A stretch of DNA of 49,159 nucleotides from Alphaproteobacteria bacterium (GTDB taxonomy: Bacteria; Pseudomonadota; Alphaproteobacteria; Thalassobaculales; Thalassobaculaceae). The DNA is taken from positions 1-49,159 of the forward strand of contig JANSYC010000030.1 of NCBI GenBank assembly GCA_024742605.1, written 5' to 3'. Numbering within the stretch: position 1 is the stretch's first letter; each line of letters opens with the position of its first letter. Both the position numbers and the translations under genes were made by a program. The notes below the pieces were generated by a model, which was given only the letters and a program-made list of their open reading frames with translations, had not been told where the DNA came from and did no database searches. Shown here piece after piece: positions 22,866 to 30,642 of the stretch.

Positions 22866-23638
22866 GGTTCGAACTGTTCCTTGAGCACGCGTTCTTCGAG
22901 ATTGTGGTCAGCATCGTAGAGCACAGTAAGCGAAACCGATCTGTCCTCCCGCACCACAACTTTCTCGACATCGTGGACTTCCTGGACATCCGCGACCGCA
23001 TGAACCGGACGCTTGTAGCCGCGCTGGACTACGAAGGTGATCTCGGCCGTATGGGGCAGGAGCGCGCCGCGCCACCGCCGCGGACGGAACGGACTGATCG
23101 GAGTGAGCGCCAGCACGCCGGCTCCGATCGGAATGATCGGGCCATGGGCCGAGAAGTTATAGGCGGTCGACCCGGCCGGCGTGGAGACCAGAACGCCGTC
23201 GCAGACCAGTTCGTCCATCCGTTTCTTGCCGTCGATCAGAATCGCGATCTTGGCCGCCTGGGCGGATCCTCGGTAAAGTGAGACTTCGTTGATCGCAAGG
23301 CCGCGATGGGTTTCGCCGTCCTGCGTGGTCGCCTCCATGCGCAGCGGGTGCAGACTGTTCGCCACAGCCCCCTTGATGCGCGAGATCAGATCGTCCGCCC
23401 GGTAGTGGTTCATCAGAAACCCGACGGTGCCCCTGTTCATGCCGTAGATCGGCTTTTTCAGGTCGATGCAGGATCGCAGGGTTTCGAGCATATGCCCATC
23501 CCCGCCCAGTGCGACGATCACGTCGGCCCGCTCGCGGCCGACATCGCCATAGGTTCGCCTCAGTTCCTCGGCCGCACCGCGTGCCTCATCTGTGCTCGCA
23601 GACTCAAAGGTCAGCGCCGGGCTATCGGGTACGAGCAT
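22862..23638 (-). CDS. nadK: NAD kinase
   Basis: NAD kinase makes NADP from NAD and ATP in the cytosol. The 258-residue protein has the GGDG motif (45-48) in [25 protein letters not shown], the NEVSLYRG segment and [20 protein letters not shown], all diagnostic. ATG at 23638 gives a length normal for alphaproteobacterial NadK; longer upstream frames would add an N-terminus without similarity. Its stop overlaps the start of the D-amino acid dehydrogenase, so the two are translated together. It is divergent from a hypothetical gene 181 bases away. Confidence 0.95.
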
Positions 23639-23819
23639 GGGGATCTCTCTGATGGCGGTCTGAAGGGCTGGCAGACGAACGCGACCATCTCCATGTGGCA
23701 TGAGAAGATCTCGCTCAAAACGGGGTCGCGTCGTCTTCAAGGATAGGCGATCATCCAACGTCACCAAAGCCCCAAACGACCCGCTCTGGACCGAACCCGA
23801 AATATAAGGATGCCGACCG

Positions 23820-24353
23820 ATGTTTTCGATCAACGGACCGCGCACGCTGCCGGTCGACCGCTGGCTTTTCGTCGCTCTGATCTTCGGCATGGCTTTGGTG
23901 GGAGGGGTGTTGTTCGGGGCCACGGGCCTTCGCGCGGACGACAGCGACCGCCATGCCGGCTATTACTATCCCGACAACGTGACCCATGAGACCTACAAGG
24001 CGCGGGCCTCGAAGGTTCCAAGCAGCTCTCGGCAAACCCGCATCGCGTTTGTTACCGGTGTTACCGCGCAACAGGTGCAGGCGCCCTATCCGCCGCTCAC
24101 CGCGATGTTCGCCAAGGGAACGGAGGCGGACAAGCTGATCCTTGTGAGCCTTCAGGAAGGGCGAATGGACACCCTGTTCCGGGCGCGGGCGGTACTTGCG
24201 ATGCTGACGGCCACGGCCCGCACGACGCCGGTTTTCGCGGAGCTCGATTCAGACCTGGATCACACGTTTCTGGACCTACTCAAGATCCTGGGATTCGTTC
24301 AGATCACTGTCAGCGACGGTCGTAGCTTCGCCCATCAGATCAAGATCGAATAG
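23820..24353 (+). CDS. Hypothetical membrane-anchored protein
   Basis: I do not recognise this 177-residue protein. Residues 15-37 ([22 protein letters not shown]) form one membrane segment or uncleaved signal anchor. The rest would be periplasmic: [20 protein letters not shown], then a mixed alpha/beta region with [42 protein letters not shown] and [18 protein letters not shown]. The last stretch looks like a folded C-terminal domain. It is divergent from nadK and convergent with moaA, so it is probably a single-gene unit. Only a weak AAGGA ten bases ahead supports this start. Confidence 0.7.
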
Positions 24354-24382
24354 GCGCCTGTCGAATTTGGCGGGCCGGGCGG

Positions 24383-25426
24383 TCAGCCGCCGGTCACGCT
24401 CATGTGCCGGGCAACCGGTGCACGGGGACGGCGGCGGTCGATGATGAAGTCGTGGCCCTTGGGCTTGCGCGAGATCGCCTCCCGGATCGCATCGGCCAGT
24501 GGCAGATTGGTCTCGGAGGCCCGCAGCGGCGCCCGAAGATCGGCGGCGTCGTCCTGTCCCAGGCACATGTACAGTGTGCCGGTGCAGGTGAGCCGCACCC
24601 GATTGCACGACTCGCAGAAGTTATGCGTCAGCGGGGTGATGAATCCGAGCCGCCCGTCGGTTTCCTCGACCCGCATGTAGCGCGCCGGCCCCCCGGTCAT
24701 GTAGGGGATGTCGGTGAGGGTGAAGCGTTCCGCCAGTTTGGAGCGCACCATCGACAGCGGCAGATACTGGTCCACCCGGTTCTCGCCGCCGATATCGCCC
24801 ATCGGCATCACTTCGATCACCGTCATGTCGTAGCCGCGGTCTCCGCACCATTGCAGCATGTCCGCCAGTTCGTCCTCGTTGACGCCCTTCAGCGCCACCG
24901 CGTTGATCTTGACGGCCAAGCCGGCCCGATCGGCCGCCTCAAGACCTGACATCACCTGCTCAAGCCTGCCCCAACGGGTGATGGCGCGGAACCTGTCTGG
25001 ATCCAGTGTGTCAATCGAGACATTGACCCGCCGGACGCCGGCCGCGAAAAGCTGATCCGCGTATTTTGCCAGCTGGCTGCCGTTCGTCGTCAGGGTCAGT
25101 TCGTCCAGCCCTCCGCCGTTCAGCCGCTTTCCCAACTCCCGGATCAGCCACATGATGTTCCGACGTACCAGCGGCTCCCCTCCGGTCAGCCGAAGTTTCC
25201 GCACGCCCATATCCACGAATGCGTTGCACAATCGCGCCAGTTCCTCGAGCGTCAGGACGTCGGCCTTGGGCAGGAACGTCATATCCTCCGCCATGCAGTA
25301 CACGCAGCGGAAGTCGCAACGATCGGTCACCGAAACGCGGAGATAGGAGATTTCGCGGGCAAACGGGTCGATCAGCGGCGCTGAGCTGGCGGATGTGGGC
25401 ATTGGAATTTCGATCTTGTCACTCAT
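24383..25426 (-). CDS. moaA: GTP 3',8-cyclase (molybdenum cofactor biosynthesis protein A)
   Basis: MoaA is a radical SAM enzyme that starts molybdenum cofactor synthesis by converting GTP to the cyclised precursor handled by MoaC. The 347-residue protein has the SAM cluster motif C37-x3-C41-x2-C44 in [14 protein letters not shown], and the second cluster CX2CX13C starting at [22 protein letters not shown] and the C-terminal double glycine SVTGG are diagnostic. No Shine-Dalgarno sequence is obvious at the ATG at 25426, which lies four bases from a ModE-type operator, so the transcript may be nearly leaderless. ATG at 25402 is an alternative start. Confidence 0.96.
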
Positions 25427-25429
25427 ACG

Positions 25430-25453
25430 CGTTATATACGACGGAATATAACG
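25430..25453. promoter_or_regulatory. ModE-type (Mo-box) operator between moaA and mobA
   Basis: The 24-base site consists of CGTTATAT and ATATAACG, a perfect 8-bp inverted repeat around an 8-base spacer. The published ModE consensus is CGNTATATA-N6-TATATAACG, matched with one difference. It lies three bases before the moaA start codon and 35 bases before mobA, so bound ModE-MoO4 would most simply block moaA and perhaps affect mobA. No modE gene is in the window. Confidence 0.8.
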
Positions 25454-25488
25454 CTGTTAAAGGGGCACACCACCGAACGGGGTCCGAG

Positions 25489-26142
25489 ATGACGATATCG
25501 GCCGACTTTGTTAGCGATTTCCCGGTCGTGCCGAAGGCCGTCGTGGTGGTGGTTCTGGCGGGTGGACGGTCGCGTCGCATGGGGGGCGGGCTTAAATGCC
25601 TCCGGGATCTGGCGGGCAAGAATCTGCTGCGCCGCGTTCTGGACCGCCTGCCGGAAACGGTGGGAGCGGTCGTTCTGAACGCAAACGACAGATCGGAACA
25701 GATCGCTGCATTCGGTTTGCCGGTGATGCCCGACCAGGATCCGGACGCCCGGCTTGGCCCGCTGGCCGGGATCCTGGCGGGTATGGACTGGGCATCGCAT
25801 CAGGACGGAGCGCGCTGGATCCTGGCAGTCCCTTCCGACGCGCCCTTCGTGCCGAGAGATTTGCTCGACCGGCTGTCTGGCTCGGTGGCACGGAATCAGG
25901 CGCCGTTGGCCGTAGCCGCAAGCGCCGGCCGCCTGCATCCGGTCGTGGGCCACTGGTCGCTCAGCCTCCGGGCGGAGCTGCATCGTGCGCTGACGGAGAG
26001 CGGAGAGCGCAAAGTCGGTACAGTCGTCCGCGCCTTCGGGGCCGCCATCGTGGACTGGCCGGCGGTGCCGCATGATCCGTTCCTGAACATCAACACACCG
26101 GAGGATCTGGCCGGGGCGGAACGGAACTTGAGCGCTCAATAG
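25489..26142 (+). CDS. mobA: Molybdenum cofactor guanylyltransferase
   Basis: MobA attaches GMP to molybdopterin to form the MGD cofactor of DMSO-reductase family enzymes. The 217-residue protein has the nucleotide-binding signature VVVLAGGRSRRMGGGLKCL, then ANDRSEQ, the MPDQDPDARLGPLAGILAGM segment and VPSDAPFVPRDL with the metal-binding aspartate. It ends with DPFLNINTPEDLAGAE. In the signature the usual G-x-D/N-K reads GGGLK, a small deviation. It is divergent from moaA across the ModE-type site. The ATG at 25489 is the only start that gives the family N-terminus. Confidence 0.94.
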   Translation: MTISADFVSDFPVVPKAVVVVVLAGGRSRRMGGGLKCLRDLAGKNLLRRVLDRLPETVGAVVLNANDRSEQIAAFGLPVMPDQDPDARLGPLAGILAGMDWASHQDGARWILAVPSDAPFVPRDLLDRLSGSVARNQAPLAVAASAGRLHPVVGHWSLSLRAELHRALTESGERKVGTVVRAFGAAIVDWPAVPHDPFLNINTPEDLAGAERNLSAQ

Positions 26143-26199
26143 CGGACCTGTCCGGCTTTGGACTTGCGGTTGTCTCTGACATGACACAGTCTTGCGCGC

Positions 26200-26541
26200 A
26201 TGAAACACAGATTGTTGACGATATTGGGTTTAGGTCTTGTCGCGTTTCTCGCCGGATGCGGCGAGGACGAGCCCCAGGGACCCCCAAAATCTGAGATCTA
26301 CATCGACAATCAGAGCTCGACCGAGGCCAGTGTCCGCATCAAGTTCTGGACCAAGGAATATACCGCCGTCAGCGCCGGCGACAGCGCGACGATCGCGTTC
26401 GAGAATCCGGACAAGATGAACATCGTCCAGGTCGAAGCCAAGACCCGCAAGCAATGGGACGACTGCTGGGTCACGCTGAATGTCGGTCAGACCCTGGTCG
26501 TGTTCGATGCGACGGAGCGCATCGGCTGCCGGACTGAGTGA
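26200..26541 (+). CDS. Small lipoprotein, hypothetical
   Basis: This 113-residue protein has a lipoprotein signal with the lipobox LAGC and lipidated C20. The next residues GEDEPQG are acidic; Gly at +2 does not suggest retention in the inner membrane, so it may reach the outer membrane. The mature part (about 90 residues) is rich in beta-strand patterns (SEIYIDNQSSTEASVRIKFW, then NIVQVEAKTRKQWDDCW) and has two cysteines that could form a disulfide. I recognise no domain. It is 57 bases after mobA on the same strand and could be co-transcribed. Confidence 0.75.
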   Translation: MKHRLLTILGLGLVAFLAGCGEDEPQGPPKSEIYIDNQSSTEASVRIKFWTKEYTAVSAGDSATIAFENPDKMNIVQVEAKTRKQWDDCWVTLNVGQTLVVFDATERIGCRTE

Positions 26542-26553
26542 GGCGGAAGCCCG

Positions 26554-27282
26554 TCAGCCTGCTGTCAGCAGGACCGCCCGACCGTATTTTCTGAAGGCGC
26601 GCGCGCCGGCCCCCTCCATGACGGATTTAAAGCAGGTCTCTGTATCGGTGACCATGAAGCCGGCAAGACGGTCGACGCGGTGCTGGAACAGGCCGGGACA
26701 GAGCGGCGTTCCGGGTCCGACCAGCGTGATTGCGCAATCCGGACGCGCAAGGGCGAGAAGGCCGTCGATCGATCCGTTCACCAAAGTGGTGGCGGTGACG
26801 ATCAGCCGATCTGCGCCCGGGATGATGTCCGGTGCGCGCTCGGCCGGAATATCGTCGGGGCCGGGCCGTTTCTCGAGCACTAGCGCGTGGGGTATTTTTC
26901 GCTCCAGACCGGGAAACCGGCCGATCACCACAACCTGCTCATCGGGCTCGGCCGACAGCCCATCAGTCGCCTCGGATATCAGGCTGGCACCCGTATCCGC
27001 AGCCGCGGCCGACCAATGGGCATTGCAGGCCGCGATTCCGATGGCCCGTTCATAAAGGTTGGAGGACAGCGCCATCGGTGCGAGTGCGGATAGGGCGCGT
27101 CCGCCGAAGGTCCCCGTGTCCGGAGTTGTCCAGGCGTCGGCGGCTTTGGAAGGTGATGAGGCCAAGCCCAGAACCGGTCCGCTTGGGTACAATCCCTCGA
27201 CCGCGGTCCAGTTGAAGCCCACGACGATTCGTCCGGATCGAATGTCTGAGACACCGGTTGTGACGGGAACCAAAAAGCTCAT
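26554..27282 (-). CDS. DUF364-like (putative heavy-metal chelation, Rossmann-like) protein
   Basis: This 242-residue protein looks like the DUF4213/DUF364 family, proposed to bind metals. The evidence is the N-terminal VSDIRSGRIVVGFNWTAVEG, then GLASSPSKAADAW, the conserved ERAIGIAACNAHW, and a Rossmann-like C-terminal half (QVVVIGRFPG, then LIVTATTLVNGSIDGLL and ITLVGPGTPLCPGLF). The real function of the family is not established. ATG at 27282 leaves 19 bases after the DUF3553 stop. ATG at 27324 (or TTG at 27327) would overlap that gene and cannot be excluded. Confidence 0.65.
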   Translation of the reverse strand: MSFLVPVTTGVSDIRSGRIVVGFNWTAVEGLYPSGPVLGLASSPSKAADAWTTPDTGTFGGRALSALAPMALSSNLYERAIGIAACNAHWSAAAADTGASLISEATDGLSAEPDEQVVVIGRFPGLERKIPHALVLEKRPGPDDIPAERAPDIIPGADRLIVTATTLVNGSIDGLLALARPDCAITLVGPGTPLCPGLFQHRVDRLAGFMVTDTETCFKSVMEGAGARAFRKYGRAVLLTAG

Positions 27283-27301
27283 CTGGGCGCCGAGAGCGAC
27301 G

Positions 27302-27487
27302 TCAGGACCCGGCCTCGCGCTCATCAACGGCGTCGAGAGAGACCCGGTCTGTATTGATCAACTGCTTGCCGGCATTCTCGAAATTCACCGTGACCCGAGG
27401 ACCGATGATCGTCTGGATCTGCCCGACACCCCATTCGGGTTTTCCGTCAAGCGTTACAAACGACCCGGGGCTCAGATATTCGGACAT
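27302..27487 (-). CDS. DUF3553 family protein
   Basis: This 61-residue protein is recognisable as DUF3553, a small beta-rich family of unknown function: SPGSFVTLDGKPEWGVGQIQ, then VTVNFENAGKQLIN. The layout is like the short CarD/UvrD-C-type modules that bind proteins or nucleic acids, but this is speculative. GGAGGTGG lies just before the ATG at 27487, which decides this start over one 12 codons upstream. It is divergent from chpT and probably co-transcribed with the DUF364-like gene. Confidence 0.85.
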   Translation of the reverse strand: MSEYLSPGSFVTLDGKPEWGVGQIQTIIGPRVTVNFENAGKQLINTDRVSLDAVDEREAGS

Positions 27488-27678
27488 CGCCACCTCCGCA
27501 TGCGCAGCCGAGCACTTCGGCAAACTGTAGATATGCTAACAATCCTTTTTCGCGCGTGCGAGAAGAATGCCGTGTTCGACCGATTGTTTCGCGGCGGGTG
27601 GCGGAAAACCGAAGTTTCCGGTTGCTCAAGGTGGCCTGATCGCTGCATCTCTGAGGGCCAAAGTTTGATAATGTCTGT

Positions 27679-27707
27679 CCGATTCGCAAGAACCGCATCC
27701 GGGAATC
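27679..27707. promoter_or_regulatory. Pair of GANTC sites upstream of chpT
   Basis: CCGATTCG (27679-27686) is the same octamer found in the repeat cluster at 1916-1987. A second GANTC (GAATC, 27703-27707) begins 22 bases after the first GANTC, two helical turns away. They lie 66-94 bases before the chpT start. They could be CcrM methylation sites in the chpT promoter. Confidence 0.4.
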
Positions 27708-27772
27708 CTGATCGGACGGGCAGGGACGGCGGAGCATCGACGCCCGGAACCGGCTACCGAGAGGCCTTGGAC

Positions 27773-28396
27773 ATGAGCGGAAATGGGACCGATCAGATCA
27801 TCACTCTAGAGCACCTGGACTTGTTGTTGTCGAAGGTCTTTCACGATCTGATCTCGCCGGTTTCGGCCGCCAGGAACGGGTTGGAGCTGGTCCGCGAGTT
27901 TTCGGGAGACGAGGTGGGCGGCGACGCGATCGAACTGGTCGAACAGAGCGTCGGACAGGCGGCCGATCGTCTGACGTTTTTCCGGATGGCATTTGGCGGC
28001 GCCGGGTCGGGAGGAGGCTTGGATGCCCGGCTGGCGGCGCAACTGGCGAAAGACTATCTCGCGGGCCGCAAGATCGAGACCGATATCTCGAACTGGCCGG
28101 CAGATCCGCATCCGGACGGCGTGCTGAAGGTGGTTCTGCAGACAACCGCACTCGCGGCTGATTGCCTGCCGCGTGGCGGCCTCATCCGGGTGGCGGAACA
28201 GCCGGGCGGTTGCCGGGTCGTCGCGGAGGGCAGAGGCGCCGCCATTCCCGACAGCATGGTCGCAGCCCTGGAGACGTCGGTCGCGGACCAAGTCTCGCCG
28301 GAGACGGTCCTGGCGGACACTTTGCGGGTAACCGCGACCCGCTTCGCGGTCACGGTCGAGAGATCCGGCGACACGGGCTTCGTCTTGGGCTGGTAG
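27773..28396 (+). CDS. chpT: Histidine phosphotransferase ChpT
   Basis: ChpT passes phosphate from the hybrid kinase CckA to CtrA and CpdR in the alphaproteobacterial cell-cycle pathway. The 207-residue protein has the phospho-accepting H24 in LLLSKVFHDLISPVSAARNG, within an alpha-helical hairpin (through about residue 90), then a degenerate ATPase-like domain. The C-terminal region (AVTVERSGDTGFVLGW) fits the family. ATG at 27773 is used; an in-frame ATG about 100 bases upstream would add residues without similarity. ctrA is convergent immediately downstream, which supports the assignment. Confidence 0.88.
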   Translation: MSGNGTDQIITLEHLDLLLSKVFHDLISPVSAARNGLELVREFSGDEVGGDAIELVEQSVGQAADRLTFFRMAFGGAGSGGGLDARLAAQLAKDYLAGRKIETDISNWPADPHPDGVLKVVLQTTALAADCLPRGGLIRVAEQPGGCRVVAEGRGAAIPDSMVAALETSVADQVSPETVLADTLRVTATRFAVTVERSGDTGFVLGW

Positions 28397-28405
28397 GCTC
28401 GGCCG

Positions 28406-29095
28406 TTATGCCGCCCGCTCCACCGGATCCCGCAGAACGTAGCCCCGACCCCAAACGGTTTCGATGTAATTCGTTCCGCCGGTAGCGGTGGACAGCTTCT
28501 TGCGGAGCTTGCAGATGAACACGTCGATGATCTTCAGCTCCGGCTCGTCCATACCGCCGTAGAGATGATTGAGGAACATTTCCTTGGTCAATGTGGTCCC
28601 TTTGCGAAGGGACAGCAATTCCAGGATGCCGTATTCCTTGCCGGTCAGGTGAATCGGGGTGCCTTCCGCTTCGACAGTTCTCTGATCCAGATTGATGGTC
28701 AGCTTACCCGTGCGAATGATGGATTCCGAATGGCCTTGCGACCGCCGGACGATTGCCTGAATGCGTGCCAGAAGCTCGCGGCGGTCGAAGGGCTTCGTGA
28801 CGTAGTCGTCGGCTCCGAAGCCGAGCCCCTTGATCTTCGCATCGAGCTCCGCCACCCCGGACAGGATCAGGATCGGGGTCTGAACGCGCGCGGCCCGCAG
28901 GCGGCGCAGCACCTCATACCCGTCCATGTCCGGCAACATGAGATCGAGGAGAATGATGTCGTAGTCGTAGAGCTGGCCGATCTCCAGGCCGTCCTCTCCA
29001 TGCTCGGTCACGTCGACGACGAACGATTCCGCCTTCAACATCAACTCGATACTACGTGCCGTCGGTCCATCGTCTTCGACCAAGAGAACCCGCAT
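28406..29095 (-). CDS. ctrA: Cell-cycle response regulator CtrA
   Basis: CtrA is the OmpR-type master regulator of division, flagella and motility in alphaproteobacteria. The 229-residue protein has the receiver domain with D51 as phosphorylation site in [11 protein letters not shown] and K101 in TKPF, then the winged-helix DNA-binding domain. The stretch from [20 protein letters not shown] to [29 protein letters not shown] is almost identical to Caulobacter CtrA. ATG at 29095, with GGGAG eight bases upstream, is preferred to the GTG three codons earlier. It is convergent with chpT and divergent from fliI. Confidence 0.97.
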
Positions 29096-29122
29096 CGTTT
29101 CCACTCCCGTTGCCGCTCGCGC

Positions 29123-29212
29123 TTAACACTTCAAGACCGCGCAATTCATGATGAGATAAGGTTAACAGCCTCCTTCTGAACGAAAGGTTAACCTGACAAG
29201 CATATTCGTTAA
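29123..29212. promoter_or_regulatory. TTAA-rich divergent promoter region of ctrA and fliI
   Basis: Four TTAA tetramers (29123, 29162, 29188, 29209) lie within 90 bases of GC-rich sequence. Two belong to a direct repeat AAGGTTAAC at 29158-29166 and 29184-29192, 26 bases apart, and one lies in the palindrome AGGTTAACCT (29185-29194). TTAA is the half-site of CtrA (TTAA-N7-TTAA). No full N7 site is present, so half-site binding or another factor is possible. No GANTC is seen here. Confidence 0.5.
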
Positions 29213-29292
29213 ATTTAGGCCGTATGATACATTTGCTCAGACATTCAAACATATGGCCGCGATCTCCAAGGCCTTTTATCGGGAGTTCGGTT

Positions 29293-30642
29293 TTGGCGAC
29301 CCTTCTGCGACACCTCGCCAATGAGATTGAAAAAGTCCAGGACGTCCGGGTTTACGGACGTGTGACGGCGGTTTTGGGCATGATGGTCGAAATCGGCGGC
29401 GTGGAGCGGGCGCTTTCCATCGGCGATCGCTGTTTCGTTCAGGCGCGCGGCAACCGTCTGATCGCCTGCGAGGTTGTCGGCTTTCGGGATGGTCGGGCGC
29501 TGGCAATGCCGTTCAACGCGGTTGAAGGCGTTGGTATCGGGTCGCGGGCCTTGATCTCGGACGCCCAGCCGGTGGTGTATCCGGATAACAATTGGCTTGG
29601 ACGGGTGGTGGACGCGATGGGCCGCCCAGTTGACGGTAAGGGGCCGCTGTCCGACGGGATCGTCGCCTATCCGTTTCGCGCCCCTCCGCCGCCGGCGCAT
29701 ACCAGACGCCGGGTCGGTGAGAAGCTGGATATCGGCGTACGCGCAATCAATCAGTTCCTGACGATCTGCCGGGGACAGCGCATGGGTATCTTCGCTGGGT
29801 CCGGCGTCGGGAAATCCATGCTGATGGCGATGTTGGCGCGGTTCGCCCGGGCCGACGTCTTTGTGATCGGACTGATCGGTGAGCGAGGCCGTGAGGTTCA
29901 GGAGTTCATCCAGGACTACTTGGGCGAGGACGGGATGTCGCGCTCGGTCGTCGTGGTCGCCACCTCCGATGAAAGTCCCCTGATGCGGCGTCAGGCGGCG
30001 TATCTCACCCTCTCGGTCGCCGAACGGTTCCGGGATGAAGGCAAGCAGGTCGTCTGCATGATGGATTCGGTCACGCGTTTCGCGATGGCCCAACGTGAGA
30101 TCGGCCTGGCGAGCGGGGAGCCGCCGGCGTCCAAGGGCTACACGCCGACAGTGTTCGCCGAACTTCCCAGATTGCTGGAACGGGCCGGCCCCGGCGCCGA
30201 TGAGGGATCGATCACCGGTCTGTTCACGGTCCTGGTCGAAGGCGATGACCACAATGAGCCGATCTCGGATGCGGTTCGGGGTATTCTGGACGGGCACATT
30301 GTGCTGGACCGGTCGATCGCCGATCGAGGCCGCTATCCCGCGATCAATATCCTGCGGTCGGTCAGCCGCATGATGCCGGACTGCAATTCGGCGGAAGAGA
30401 ACGTTCTGATCCGTCGGGCGCGTGCCCTAATGGCCACATACGAGGATATGGCCGAGATGATTCGACTTGGTGCCTATCGCAAAGGCAGCGACCAGCTTGT
30501 TGATGAGTCGATCCTCTATCACGAGCCCCTGGAAGCGTTCCTGTCCCAGCAGAAGGATGAGCTTGCCGATATGGACGAGGGCTTTGCGACCCTGGCGGAT
30601 ATTCTGGGCCAGGGCGCCGAGCCGGCCGATGCGACGGTCTAG
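29293..30642 (+). CDS. fliI: Flagellar protein export ATPase FliI
   Basis: FliI is the hexameric ATPase that powers export of flagellar axial proteins. The 449-residue protein matches F1-beta-type ATPases: NWLGRVVDAMGRPVDGKG, Walker A GIFAGSGVGKS with K174, GLIGERGREVQEFIQDYLGE, Walker B VVCMMDSVTRFAMAQREIGL, GEPPASKGYTPTVFAELPRL and EGDDHNEPISDAVRGILDGH. The TTG at 29293 has GGGAG seven bases upstream and gives a normal N-terminus (ATLLRHLANEIEKVQDVRV). An ATG at 29224 would add 23 unmatched residues. fliJ follows after 15 bases. Confidence 0.95.
   Translation: MATLLRHLANEIEKVQDVRVYGRVTAVLGMMVEIGGVERALSIGDRCFVQARGNRLIACEVVGFRDGRALAMPFNAVEGVGIGSRALISDAQPVVYPDNNWLGRVVDAMGRPVDGKGPLSDGIVAYPFRAPPPPAHTRRRVGEKLDIGVRAINQFLTICRGQRMGIFAGSGVGKSMLMAMLARFARADVFVIGLIGERGREVQEFIQDYLGEDGMSRSVVVVATSDESPLMRRQAAYLTLSVAERFRDEGKQVVCMMDSVTRFAMAQREIGLASGEPPASKGYTPTVFAELPRLLERAGPGADEGSITGLFTVLVEGDDHNEPISDAVRGILDGHIVLDRSIADRGRYPAINILRSVSRMMPDCNSAEENVLIRRARALMATYEDMAEMIRLGAYRKGSDQLVDESILYHEPLEAFLSQQKDELADMDEGFATLADILGQGAEPADATV

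Follow-up and report, generated by a model that had tools for sequence, protein, structure and literature searches.

The window analysed (the whole stretch of DNA, 49,159 nucleotides) contains two divergently oriented molybdenum cofactor (Moco) genes, moaA and mobA, separated by a 24-mer with the sequence CGTTATAT-N8-ATATAACG (Table 1). The 24-mer lies exactly where a preliminary description of this DNA had placed it, and the gene names proposed there held, with both profile scores above the TIGR02666 and TIGR02665 cut-offs. It is separated by 3 bp from the moaA ATG, whose A is at 25426 on the minus strand, and by 35 bp from that of mobA. A frame encoding a lipoprotein-like product of 113 aa (26200-26541) is found 3' of mobA, with a similar frame after mobA in a genome of genus g10 (L125), and farther downstream (27059-30642) is a group of frames that, by eye, look like ChpT, CtrA and the flagellar ATPase FliI.

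Table 1. Coordinates of the genes, the Mo-box and the predicted promoter elements in the window, and of related modules in other genomes
Feature	Position	Strand	Basis
Mo-box, proposed ModE(S) operator	25430..25453	no strand	perfect 8-bp inverted repeat, 8-bp gap
moaA, GTP 3',8-cyclase	24383..25426	minus	TIGR02666 360.3 bits, cut-off 284.05
mobA, Moco guanylyltransferase	25489..26142	plus	TIGR02665 173.9 bits, cut-off 151.85
predicted moaA -35, TTAACA	25455..25460	minus	simple -35/-10 weights
predicted moaA -10, TATATA or TATAAC	25431..25438	minus	within operator; simple weights
compact moaA/Mo-box/fdhD-mobA-modE(S) modules, two other families	L268:1679-4606, L269:1279-4202, L270:3908-6858

The pattern matched once in the 49-kb window and not at all in 100 dinucleotide shuffles of it. 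Across the whole 4.47 Mb genome, three places were found with up to 3 mismatches, compared with none for a reversed control pattern; the third of these, on contig C80, is AT-rich DNA that, read by eye, apparently falls within a reading frame. The inverted repeat is close to CGNTATAT-N8-ATATANCG, uncommon across the genome and located at molybdenum genes; judged by its sequence, the 24-mer is a Mo-box, the proposed operator of ModE. The initial count of a single departure from the ModE consensus depends on the consensus used: against the 28-base form printed in PMC2700814, ATCGCTATATA-N6-TATATAACGAT, 5 of 22 specified bases differ, 2 of these in its 18-base core (counted by eye).

Predicted -35 and -10 elements for moaA were placed at and beside the box, and a -10 at 25433-25438 would set the moaA start at or beside the ATG. 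As a strict promoter scan of 25300-25600 returned no promoter, all promoter calls here rest on our own simple weights.

A short ModE and a second Mo-box

A ModE homologue, which had been named as a thing to look for, is present in the genome, and a further Mo-box was found at modA, in line with the suggestion that modABC be searched. The gene order on contig C178 is metC, modE(S) (L010:4792-5157), second Mo-box (C178:19190, between modE and modA), modA, modB and modC. The metC gene (cystathionine beta-lyase, TIGR01324, 482 bits; L010:3488-4786) immediately precedes modE(S), and a metC match before modE was also seen in many loci of the host's family.

The host ModE is 121 aa long and ends after its DNA-binding domain. 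Only HTH_1 was detected in a Pfam search (PF00126, 32.7 bits, above the cut-off of 26.6), with no C-terminal Mop/TOBE domain, and the score against TIGR00637 was 79.4 bits, under the cut-off of 98.5. The protein lacks the C-terminal molybdate-binding Mop domains that characterise full-length ModE. Its best match among solved structures was PDB 2ijl (135 aa, E 6.7e-21), with similarity spanning residues 9-109, followed by the N-terminal part of E. coli ModE (E 4e-9); 2ijl is presumably the short ModE of Agrobacterium tumefaciens. TOBE matches numbered six in the genome, every one in an open frame of at least 361 aa, and two were above cut-off, one of them ModC; a stand-alone Mop protein, the other homologue that had been proposed as a check, was not found among these six. 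With no Mop/TOBE domain in the host ModE and no stand-alone Mop found, direct reading of molybdate is not to be assumed, and the original picture of ModE acting with molybdate is, in that form, not supported for this protein.

Mo-boxes and promoters in related genomes

A search across the taxonomic order yielded 36 genomes, all of one family and including the host genome. MoaA matches were obtained in 29 and ModE matches in 31; 30 ModE loci were measured (two further ModE matches came without a locus), and the length between the start of the match and the stop was 108-125 aa in all of them. Upstream regions were analysed for 29 of 30 moaA loci, L149 being truncated at a contig end. Boxes were present in 8, 13, 19, 22 and 24 of these at up to 1, 2, 3, 4 and 5 mismatches, respectively, compared with 0.0, 0.0, 0.04, 0.33 and 1.78 expected from 200 dinucleotide shuffles of each upstream region. 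A reversed pattern with the same TATA core came as close as 4 mismatches in 6 of 30 loci, and in none as close as 3. The five moaA genes lacking a box are the second moaA of G010 (L143) and those of four g10 genomes, which keep the right half-site with the left shifted by one base, a match no better than shuffles. Three genomes (G008, G020 and G032, 69-71% complete) carry the moaA box with no ModE match. G022 and G023, 1.5-Mb genomes that are 99% complete, had neither MoaA nor ModE matches and are apparently reduced genomes that have lost the Moco pathway.

When whole genomes are scanned freely with up to 2 mismatches, the pattern proves unspecific in AT-rich members of the family, with hits in 21 of 36 genomes and hits of the reversed control in 12 of 36. 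Nine further family places with a box at this threshold were read; in L208 (G028) the box stands just ahead of a frame resembling, by eye, another modA, followed by a ModB match, and for the other eight no tie to molybdenum genes was found. The gene across the box from moaA varies: unrelated frames occur in g3 and g12, and in G010, g8 and g9 the place between moaA and mobA is taken by fdhD, with scores of 140.8, 145.3 and 130 bits for three of these FdhD proteins against a TIGR00129 cut-off of 140.9.

Three predicted promoter layouts were recognised under the moaA box from the best or second-best -35/-10 weight matches, and in each the -10 or the start would lie under a bound protein. In layout 1 (g1, g6, g10 and g11), the right half-site contains the predicted -10 (TATATA, TATAAC or TATATC), and the moaA ATG comes 3-7 nt past the box, no ribosome-site motif being present (9 loci, four genera); g9 has the same -10 and yet an ATG 19-40 nt on. 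In layout 2 (g5, g7 and g8), the -10 occupies the left half-site (TTGAAG-17-TATATC in g8, for example), and both a leader and a ribosome-site motif are present. In layout 3 (g2, g3 and g12), the -10 is 9-13 nt ahead of the box, as in TTGATA-16-TATAAT of g3. The layout in g4 is ambiguous. One operator thus appears to be kept while the promoter beneath it takes three forms. A box overlapping the predicted -10 or start fits repression, and an ATG 3-7 bp off the box with no ribosome site in four genera fits a leaderless message. The earlier proposals of direct repression of moaA and of a nearly leaderless moaA message are in keeping, at the level of prediction, with the placement over the predicted core promoter, the recurrence of the box at relatives' moaA and the near-leaderless start common to four genera.

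At the family's ModE loci, a modA match was in view in 25 of 30. A box between modE and modA at up to 4 mismatches was found in 14 of these (both g1 genomes, G029, G010, G012, G013, four g8 and four g10 genomes), and additionally in G018. The remaining 11 (L157, L158, L160, L164-L167 and L169-L172) lack one, an absence that refers to the modA adjacent to modE. Seven of these 11 genomes have a moaA box, at 4 mismatches in G002 and at up to 3 in G003, G004, G006, G007, G021 and G033; for the remaining four, moaA was either truncated or not found.

Outside this set, 430 bp were searched at each of 80 named moaA loci, giving boxes in 9 when up to 4 mismatches were allowed and in 6 when the limit was 3, compared with 2 and 0 for the reversed pattern; L028 and L037, among the nine, are seemingly members of the host's own family. 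Thirty of the named genomes were searched for ModE, with a ModE-like match in 24, short in 22; among the eight boxed named genomes searched, no ModE match was found for L033, L037 and L060. MoaA was matched in 95 of 144 genomes sampled from the class. Outside the family, 9 of 96 moaA upstream regions (93 genomes) had a box with 3 or fewer mismatches, in eight families, with 0.05 expected. Scanning the class with no more than 1 mismatch allowed found the pattern in 42 of 386 genomes and the reversed control in about 23; the 46 loci obtained comprised 23 close to mod genes, 4 at moaA and 19 with none of the seven query genes nearby. Ahead of modA in G267, two Mo-boxes with 1 mismatch start 44 bp apart (L244:1142-1209). 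The moaA box was also considered as a general mark of genomes with ModE(S) and rejected, as most moaA loci of the named genomes with a ModE-like match have no box.

Compact modules, in which moaA is followed across the box by divergent fdhD-mobA-modE(S), occur in G093 and G215 (one family) and G178 (another). In G163, mobA and modE(S) are adjacent and 3.6 kb from moaA, with transporter-like genes intervening. The ModE of all four genomes is likewise short.

Proposed regulation and its alternatives

The explanation that, as a whole, we consider probable builds on what was observed, namely the Mo-box, the two Moco genes, the short ModE, a second Mo-box and the recurrence in relatives: ModE(S) would repress moaA and probably mobA, with a leaderless moaA start, in a Moco feedback. 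The box between the two genes would be the operator of the ModE(S) encoded elsewhere in the genome, and once bound, the protein would sit over the spacer and -10 of the moaA promoter, blocking RNA polymerase. The moaA message would begin at or next to the ATG and be leaderless or nearly so, and mobA, just downstream of the same site, would probably also be controlled. Repression would set in when the cell has enough Mo cofactor, so that both the first step (MoaA) and the attachment of the guanine nucleotide (MobA) would be under feedback, a role that would match that of the Moco riboswitch in E. coli. Because the box lies on the predicted moaA promoter and many relatives retain it along with the short regulator, Moco synthesis is probably switched off, either by Moco itself or by molybdenum status. 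For A. tumefaciens, the short ModE (Hoffmann et al. 2016) reportedly responds to Moco status rather than molybdate, and it is from there that Moco sensing enters the explanation. If Moco is sensed in the host as well, the circuit would be end-product feedback, and if not, molybdate-linked repression; ModE(S) as the putative moaA repressor is common to both. Counted against the explanation are the TIGR00637 score below cut-off, the boxed genomes with no ModE match, the shift in g10 and the empty strict scan.

Were molybdate the signal, it would be read by ModE(S) or by a partner, for instance the ModC TOBE domain, and the operator would shut moaA when molybdate is plentiful. The box at modA, the TOBE domain in ModC and the title of 2ijl, a molybdenum-binding repressor according to its depositors, are points in favour, but a ModE with no molybdate domain, a stand-alone Mop not found and Agrobacterium results that reportedly favour Moco status make this rather unlikely. 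That bound ModE turns moaA on, as molybdate-ModE does at the S1 promoter of E. coli moa (PMC2408646), is very unlikely, because overlap with the predicted -10 or start, seen in every layout, is a poor position for an activator. It is highly improbable that the site serves mainly mobA, with moaA merely adjoining; the box is close to the mobA ATG as well, yet in several genera mobA is not across the box and the moaA side stays. Finally, a chance palindrome from an AT-rich promoter could draw on the part of the repeat that is predicted -10 sequence, and on the reversed control hits that reveal an unspecific pattern in AT-rich genomes, but is barely credible against 19 of 29 moaA boxes where shuffles predict 0.04 and with CG ends that are kept while the promoter register shifts.

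Repression by ModE(S) under cofactor feedback may extend to the family: tentatively, family ModE(S) would be chiefly a cofactor-feedback repressor of moaA with mobA or fdhD-mobA, and not of molybdate uptake. This suggestion derives from the moaA box in seven genomes whose adjacent modA shows none and from modE(S) standing in the run divergent from moaA in two other families. It would link a regulator with no sensing domain of its own to the initial step in making the product on which it supposedly reports, and the compact modules (moaA, box, fdhD-mobA-modE(S)) offer a way to find its signal. Among titles and abstract openings, no Mo-box at an alphaproteobacterial moaA was found in a literature search in which "ModE" is confounded with "mode" and regulon databases were outside the scope; an earlier prediction elsewhere is possible.

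Comparison with known systems

The host ModE resembles A. tumefaciens ModE(S) (2ijl) in sequence, in consisting of the DNA-binding domain only and in having a Mo-box at modA. The A. tumefaciens protein is not known to have targets other than modA, whereas the host has a strong Mo-box on the moaA promoter too. Full-length E. coli ModE, acting at modABC and moa, shares with the host the type of operator and moa as a target, a proposed one in the host; according to PMC2408646, it activates moa and has a molybdate domain, whereas in the host this domain is missing and the site is on the predicted core promoter. The same paper describes repression of E. coli moa by Moco via leader RNA, with a Moco riboswitch candidate (RF01055) upstream of moaA. 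RF01055 gave no match in positions 23000-28000 of the window or in any of the 36 family genomes, with the E. coli control found. In both the riboswitch, as presented there, and the loop proposed for the host, the cofactor level would feed back on moaA, through an RNA leader in E. coli and through a DNA operator and a protein in the host. If this is true, ModE(S) would be the protein equivalent of the Moco riboswitch, and the promoter on which it acts would in some genera be a leaderless one.
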